From assembly GCA_016193065.1 (NCBI GenBank), contig JACPSX010000154.1, positions 1 through 9,823 of the forward strand: a DNA stretch of 9,823 nucleotides, given 5' to 3'. A program made the position numbers and the translations under genes. Each line of letters starts with the position of its first letter. Within the stretch, counting starts at the first letter, position 1. The notes below the pieces were generated by a model. It had not been told where the DNA came from, searched no databases, and saw nothing but the letters and a program-made list of their open reading frames with translations. The stretch is from Candidatus Tectimicrobiota bacterium. GTDB lineage: Bacteria > JACPSX01. Below are positions 1,398 to 3,574 of the stretch, in pieces.

Positions 1398-2066
1398 GTG
1401 ATCCTCAAGGCCATCGAACAGTGCCTGCGGGAAATCTACCAGATCGAGCTGCCGCTGAGCGTCGAGGATTTTCTGATCGATCAGCACACTCTGGAGTCCG
1501 TCATGGAAAGAGGAAACTGCCGCATCGCCCATCGCAAGGCCGGCGGGTTTCTCCTGATTTCGGAAGGTTCGGATGACCTGTACCTGGCCGTCTACCTCGA
1601 CGGCCGGATCATTTCCAACCTGACCAGCAACGACCCCCGGAATTCGCTGAACAGCGACAACTTGGCAGACTTCTGTACGGCCACCGAGGAGGTCAGCCAC
1701 TTTGCCTACACGGCCTGGAATGCGTTGCAGTCGAAGCCGGTCACCCCTCTGGAGCTGGAGCTCCAGGGGGAGGTCGACAAGTTCGTAACGTGCTATTTCT
1801 TCTTGAACGGCCAGGGGGACCGCAACCTCCTGCCCAGCTTGAAGGCTCAACTTTTTGAGGAATTCTCCCTGGACGAGCAACTGGCGGCTGAGCAGCGTGC
1901 CCGCTATCTCACGGCCAGCCAATACGCGGGGCGCTACTGCCATCACCTGGAACAGTCTTACGTGCGGGAAGGGTTGCCGGAAGCCATGATCCGGGATCTC
2001 CGCCGCTTCTACCGCATGGGGATGGAGGGCAAGTTCCTCCACATCCAGCGCTCCCTCCTCCAATAA
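1398..2066 (+). CDS. Protein of unknown function, second gene of the two-gene unit
   Basis: A protein of 222 residues if translated from GTG 1398, with no family I can name. The frame is open back to an ATG at 1317. That start would overlap the upstream gene by 71 bases and add a Pro/Ala/Ser-rich stretch, so I prefer GTG 1398, or TTG 1377 as second choice; none has a strong Shine-Dalgarno. Residues 45-75 look like beta strands ([19 protein letters not shown]). The rest looks helical, with charged clusters EEVSHF (97-102), [11 protein letters not shown] (119-129) and YCHHLEQ (180-186). These Glu/His groups could bind metal, but that is speculation. There is no signal peptide or membrane segment, so a cytoplasmic partner of the 761-1387 product is the simplest reading. 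The 3' end is overlapped antisense by the abnormal tail of groEL. Confidence 0.7.
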
Positions 2067-3574
2067 GGTCCCAGAAACACGTGAGGCCCCGCGGCCTTAC
2101 GGCTGCAGGGCCCCTTATGTAAATCCACCGCTCCTTTAGTACATGTCAGGAGACGGCGGCATTCGCTCTTCACCTTCTCAACCACGATGGAGCCCTCGAA
2201 ACCCGCATTCTGAGCAATCTGCCGAATGGGCTCCTCGAGGGCCCGCTTCACGATGTTGACTCCGATCTGCATGTCCCCATCGAACTTGAGGTTCTCGAGG
2301 GCAGGCACGGCACGCAGGTAGGCAACGCCGCCTCCCGGAACGGTGCCTTCTTCCACGGCCGCCCGGGTCGCGTGGAGAGCGTCCTCCACACGGGCCTTTT
2401 TCTCCTTCATGGCGGTCTCCGTGGCGGCTCCCACTTTAATGACCGCCACCCCGCCGACCAGCTTGGCCAGGCGCTCCTGGAGCTTCTCCCGATCGTAATC
2501 GGAAGTGGTCTCTTCGATCTGAGCGCGGATCTGCTTCACCCGCCCTTCAATATCCGCGGGCTTGCCATAGCCCTCCACGATCGTGGTGTTGTCCTTATCG
2601 ATGGTGATCTTCTTGGCCCGCCCCAGGTCATCCAGGCGCACGTTCTCGAGCTTCACCCCGAGATCCTCAGAGATTGCCTGGCCGCCGGTCAAAATGCCGA
2701 TGTCCCGGAGCATCTCCTTACGCCGATCCCCGAAGCCGGGGGCTTTCACGCCAGCGGCCTGCAGGGTTCCCCGCAGCTTGTTGACAACCAGGGTGGCCAG
2801 GGCCTCCCCCTCCACGTCTTCGGCTACGATCAGCAGGGGCTTTCCTACCTTGGCCACCTGCTCAAGCAGAGGGAGAAGGTCCTTCATACTGCTGATCTTC
2901 TTCTCGTGGAGCAGGATGAAGGGCTCTTCCAGTACCACCTCCATGCGCTCCGCGTCTGTGACAAAGTACGGGGATAGATACCCACGGTCAAATTGCATTC
3001 CCTCGACGATTTCCAGGGAAGTCTCCATGCTCTTGGCTTCTTCGACCGTGATGACCCCGTCTTTCCCCACTTTCTCCATGGCTTCGGCAATAAGATCTCC
3101 AATGGTCCGATCGTTGTTGGCAGAAATGGTCCCAACCTGGGAGATCTCTTTCTTGTCCCCAATCGTCTTGCTTTGCTTCTTCAATTCCTCCACGACCACT
3201 TCGACGGCCTTTTCAATCCCCCGCTTCAGATCCATGGGGTTGGCCCCGGCAGTGACATTCTTAATGCCCTCGCGGTAGACAGCCTGCGCCAAAACAGTGG
3301 CGGTGGTGGTGCCGTCACCAGCCACATCGCTCGTCTTGCTGGCCACTTCGTTCACCATCTGGGCCCCCATATTCTCAAAGGGGTCCTTGAGTTCAATTTC
3401 CTTGGCTACGGTCACCCCGTCCTTCGTAATCGTGGGCGATCCAAACTTCTTGCTTAAAACGACGTTTCTTCCCTTGGGGCCCAGGGTGACCTTGACCGCG
3501 TTGGCCAACTGGTCTACCCCTTTCATGATCTTGTGGCGGGCCTCCTCATCGTAAAGTATCTGCTTTGCTGCCAT
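2009..3574 (-). CDS. groEL: Chaperonin GroEL with an aberrant, truncated C-terminus
   Basis: Encodes the large subunit of the ATP-driven folding chaperonin. Residues 1-470 follow GroEL closely: [10 protein letters not shown] (31-40), KDGVTV with the catalytic-site Asp52, and GDGTTT with Asp87. The apical-domain segments [13 protein letters not shown] and [36 protein letters not shown] (with the Asp equivalent to E. coli 398) and GSIVVEKVK all follow. From about residue 471 (base 2164) the family sequence vanishes. The usual block after KVK, about 75 residues with YGYNAAT-, DP-(T/A)-KVTR- and Ala-rich helices plus the GGM tail, is replaced by about 50 unrelated Cys/Arg/Pro-rich residues ending at TAG 2009-2011. 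The lost part includes the nucleotide-contacting Asp495 region and inter-subunit contacts, so this copy is probably non-functional unless the break is an assembly error. GAGGAGGT lies eight bases before the ATG. groES is 59 bases upstream in the same operon. Confidence 0.93.
2085..2112 (+). terminator. Strong hairpin after the two-gene unit, likely terminator
   Basis: GGCCC at 2085-2089 pairs with GGGCC at 2108-2112. After one C-A mismatch, GCGGCC (2091-2096) pairs with GGCTGC (2101-2106) around a TTAC loop. That gives about eleven pairs including one G-T wobble, starting 18 bases after the stop at 2066. The following bases (CCTTATGT) are not a proper T-tract, so termination on the plus strand may be weak or Rho-assisted. 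The same stem lies inside the aberrant reading tail of groEL on the other strand. Confidence 0.5.
2125..2159. repeat. Imperfect inverted repeat next to the groEL break
   Basis: CCACCGCTCCT (2125-2135) pairs with AGGAGACGGCGG (2148-2159): ten base pairs with one A-C mismatch and one bulged A, around a 12-base loop. Its right edge lies only about five bases from the point (2164) where groEL coding similarity stops. No target-site duplication or transposase is visible, so whether this is a mobile-element end, a REP-like element or chance is open. Confidence 0.45.

Follow-up and report, generated by a model that had tools for sequence, protein, structure and literature searches.

How does a groEL gene that reads normally over most of its length come to lose its conserved C-terminal end? 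This question is raised by the window, that is, the whole stretch of 9,823 nucleotides analysed here, which corresponds to bases 1-9823 of the 11,088-base scaffold C63 in a scaffolded draft assembly (2.9 Mb, 294 contigs, 86% complete). A preliminary description of the window had placed the loss of the groEL C-terminus at base 2164; our analysis put the break close by, at approximately 2171-2165 (Table 1).

Table 1. Features of the groEL locus in the window, with the evidence for each.
Feature	Position	Strand	Basis
Unnamed gene, 208 aa, partner of the next	761-1387	+	No family match; recurrence beside groESL
Unnamed gene, 223-249 aa, convergent with groEL	1395-2066	+	No family match; recurrence beside groESL
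Read-through past the break in the mechanical ORF, out of frame, 52 non-GroEL residues	2009-2167	-	ORF list; HMM search
Strong G+C-rich hairpin between convergent genes	2082-2115		-33 kcal/mol, z -3.5 on the groEL strand
Shifted-frame peptide, 11 residues then stop, probably the native GroEL C-terminus	2136-2171	-	Sequence; tail profile
Putative deletion junction, GTGAAG/GAAGAG overlap	2165-2171	-	Junction sequence; residue counts in relatives
groEL, intact codons 1-469	2168-3574	-	Family profiles; structures; near-invariant sites; identity with the C142 copy
groES, intact, 96 aa	3634-3924	-	Family profiles
Perfect CIRCE operator, TTAGCACTC-N9-GAGTGCTAA, upstream of groES	3997-4023		Sequence

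The ORF at 2009-3574 (minus strand) matches GroEL up to residue 469-470, in agreement with the healthy GroEL of about 470 residues described initially. The match covers positions 1-470 of the 526 of TIGR02348, with 797.7 bits against a curated equivalog cut-off of 582.1, and positions 1-434 of the 490 of PF00118, while GroEL chains from the PDB align with the protein up to residue 470. A single deviation was found at 160 near-invariant sites of the retained part, as in functional reference proteins. Furthermore, the protein is 80% identical to a second GroEL encoded on contig C142, and comparison of the two genes gave dN 0.136 and dS 1.87 (dN/dS ~0.07). Neither the near-invariant sites nor this ratio gave a sign that selection had relaxed on the remaining groEL codons or that these carry additional lesions.

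The rest of the operon is also undamaged. On the minus strand, CIRCE is followed by groES and then by groEL from 3574, and the gene has both its groES partner and a heat-shock control element. The second groEL of the genome belongs to an intact groES-groEL pair on C142 and encodes a protein of 544 aa; the DNA match between the window and the C142 operon covers groES too. The two copies group weakly together in a tree built from 92 GroELs (support 81), and because of this pairing they look like old paralogs. An imperfect CIRCE-like element lies upstream of groES in the C142 operon (L113, about 6712-6738).

We searched for the missing C-terminal equatorial block (DPTKV...TTE, the Asp495 region) using an HMM built from 91 GroELs. 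No match was obtained in any of the six frames of the scaffold, which bears out the initial observation that the block is missing in every frame. A second groEL and the missing block, for which a search had been proposed, are both found on C142, where the block occurs once only. Elsewhere in the genome, the whole-genome search returned nothing convincing (best other match, E 0.32), and the junction was not found as a repeat. The folded equatorial domain contains this block, in which we place the Asp495 region.

Contrary to what had been thought, the sequence beyond the break is not unrelated to groEL. Shifted by one frame, 2174-2136 reads as a 12-letter peptide followed by a stop codon at 2138-2136. 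The 88 relatives whose GroEL C-termini were read out share only the domain level with the source genome, none being from its phylum; their GroELs commonly end in GMY, GMM or DMY, the last in 11 of the 88. Among the 40,463 other decapeptides that precede a stop in the six frames, 16 equalled or exceeded the window tail when scored with a GroEL-tail profile, and at least nine of the best 10 of those 16 are themselves GroEL tails. The window tail has no Gly-Met repeats and for this reason scores below most true tails, 97% of which match or exceed its score. These observations make it plausible that the shifted-frame peptide is the native GroEL tail. It is followed by the hairpin, which appears terminator-like and has no clear T run.

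From the I..NAG motif to the C-terminal end, relatives have 85-118 residues, compared to about 28 in the window groEL. The simplest account would be an internal deletion of ~57-90 codons (median 65, or ~195 bases), of a length that is not a multiple of three, with codon 469 on one side of it and the final 11 codons on the other. As read, the window gene carries the disabling lesion of a pseudogene, namely this frame-shifting internal deletion.

We favour, with modest confidence, a misassembly as the origin of this deletion over a very recent real one, as the 469 retained codons show no decay and groES and CIRCE are intact. The locus would then be a CIRCE-type groES-groEL operon in which groEL has undergone a single internal loss of ~195 bases, its flanks, its own stop and the hairpin remaining in place. 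In a draft that is fragmented and scaffolded, this loss would most likely be an error of assembly, and the gene is probably full-length in the living organism. In other words, we infer that the assembler, and not the cell, made the deletion.

A misassembly is further favoured by a second gene of the window that is broken in the same way. An NMT1-type substrate-binding protein gene at 8539-9186 (plus strand) is missing ~125 residues around 8870 and changes frame a second time near 8957, as judged from its own paralogs. Two cases outside the window point in the same direction. A GlnQ-like ABC ATPase on C150 (L141, about 4760-4830) has undergone a frame change together with the loss of ~35-57 residues, among them the LSGGQ block (11 supporting loci), and a UbiD-family gene on C20 (L175, about 6344-6355) exhibits a short frame-shifting loss. 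The same homology screen applied to ~1.2 Mb from five other genomes revealed no supported frame change, save for spurious ORFs antisense to groEL, which also argues for misassembly. In ~516 kb of the source genome, sampled in stretches, the screen found 2 broken genes in ~100 well-supported genes versus 0 in ~170 such genes of the control genomes, small numbers for which we claim no significance, and it missed both broken genes of the window. As this excess is small, the idea of massive genome-wide deletions was not supported.

The fragmentation of the assembly and its scaffold gaps speak for misassembly as well. Eight N runs occur in the 516 kb sampled, one of which, a 22-N run at 9824-9845 of C63, lies immediately 3' of the window. 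A gap of 4 Ns in cmk presumably hides ~36 bases, as judged by eye from homologs, and would thus be under-sized. Two other N gaps we take, also from homologs, to be correctly sized. Since only one of the three assessable gaps seems too short, again by eye, we did not retain the idea that scaffold gaps are systematically under-sized.

Several observations count against a misassembly: the junction contains no Ns, the two other gaps appear right-sized, and broken genes are only slightly in excess. In addition, a dispensable second copy is precisely where a real deletion would survive, and the extra frameshift of the substrate-binding protein could be true pseudogene decay.

The main rival is therefore a real and very recent deletion, perhaps via a microhomology of a few bases, that inactivated one of two groEL paralogs, and we regard it as a tentative but serious possibility. 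The junction is contiguous and a short overlap (GAAG) is possible there, the genome contains other apparent pseudogenes, and the loss would be tolerated because the intact groESL on C142 supplies chaperonin. Such a deletion would have to be very young, as no other lesion is seen in the 469 codons, groES or CIRCE; moreover, the occurrence of two lesions of the same kind in one short scaffold speaks against it. The initial suggestion that the window holds a broken secondary copy is consistent with the intact groESL on C142.

A wrong join of two unrelated contigs had also been proposed, as had a rearrangement by which groEL became fused to the gene pair next to it. The abrupt end of the GroEL frame match at ~2168 agrees with either event. 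However, the loss lies inside groEL, and the break is followed by what looks like the gene's own 3' end, with a GroEL-like terminal peptide and stop in another frame and then the hairpin. Furthermore, the pair, which has no Pfam or NCBIfam match over 761-2066, has homologs that adjoin groESL in three other genomes (L064, L082, L234), where they are divergently transcribed upstream of groES; in L052 the first gene occupies this position as well. Given this recurrence, the pair would be a natural groESL neighbour. We therefore consider both a misjoin and a fusion very unlikely. A search for the 208-aa protein covered 145 genomes and found it in 13, its own among them. In the window the orientation of the pair differs, as it is convergent with and downstream of groEL. 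The two genes are possibly linked to the chaperonin.

A genuine short GroEL variant with a functional new C-terminus is more improbable still. The ORF does stay open for 52 codons past the break, but this read-through tail consists of the out-of-frame groEL 3' end, the intergenic region with its hairpin, and 58 bases complementary to the end of the next gene, and it is not a real C-terminus. Moreover, such a variant would lack a part of the folded equatorial domain that was present in all 88 GroEL C-termini read out. The least credible reading, and one close to negligible, is that a GroEL without part of its equatorial domain has been retained in a lineage that has two groESL operons and is expressed there as a partner of the intact paralog or as a decoy subunit for it.

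The window copy resembles GroEL (group I chaperonin, TIGR02348/PF00118) in residues 1-469, the groES operon and the CIRCE operator, and differs from it by the lack of the C-terminal equatorial block, with ~11 terminal codons left out of frame. According to work summarised in PMC11978752, the 27 C-terminal residues of E. coli GroEL are dispensable, and loss of 28 leads to an assembly defect. Like these truncations, the window groEL has lost C-terminal sequence; unlike them, it is minus ~65 residues that include folded equatorial sequence, and it carries a frameshift. If the sequence is real, the predicted product would comprise 469 GroEL residues and 52 foreign ones and, given the limit reported in PMC11978752, should fail to assemble into a 7- or 14-mer with ATPase activity, leaving the C142 GroEL to carry the function. 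A broken groEL copy is ordinary in a cell that has an intact second copy, and nothing suggests a new chaperonin type, whether the deletion is an artefact or real. Of little importance in itself, the locus usefully cautions that conserved genes of this draft carry internal deletions that shift the frame; therefore, its apparent truncations and fusions should not be taken for biology without reads.

Two further observations concern the window and its scaffold. A 44-aa ORF at 7015-7149 (plus strand), before queD, looks like a YCII-like protein reduced to its two ends, a reading that neither Pfam nor a plasmid search confirmed. At the other end of C63, a large gene at 9277-11088 (minus strand) seems to span the N run; in gene order, ~400 aa precede the run and 181 aa follow.
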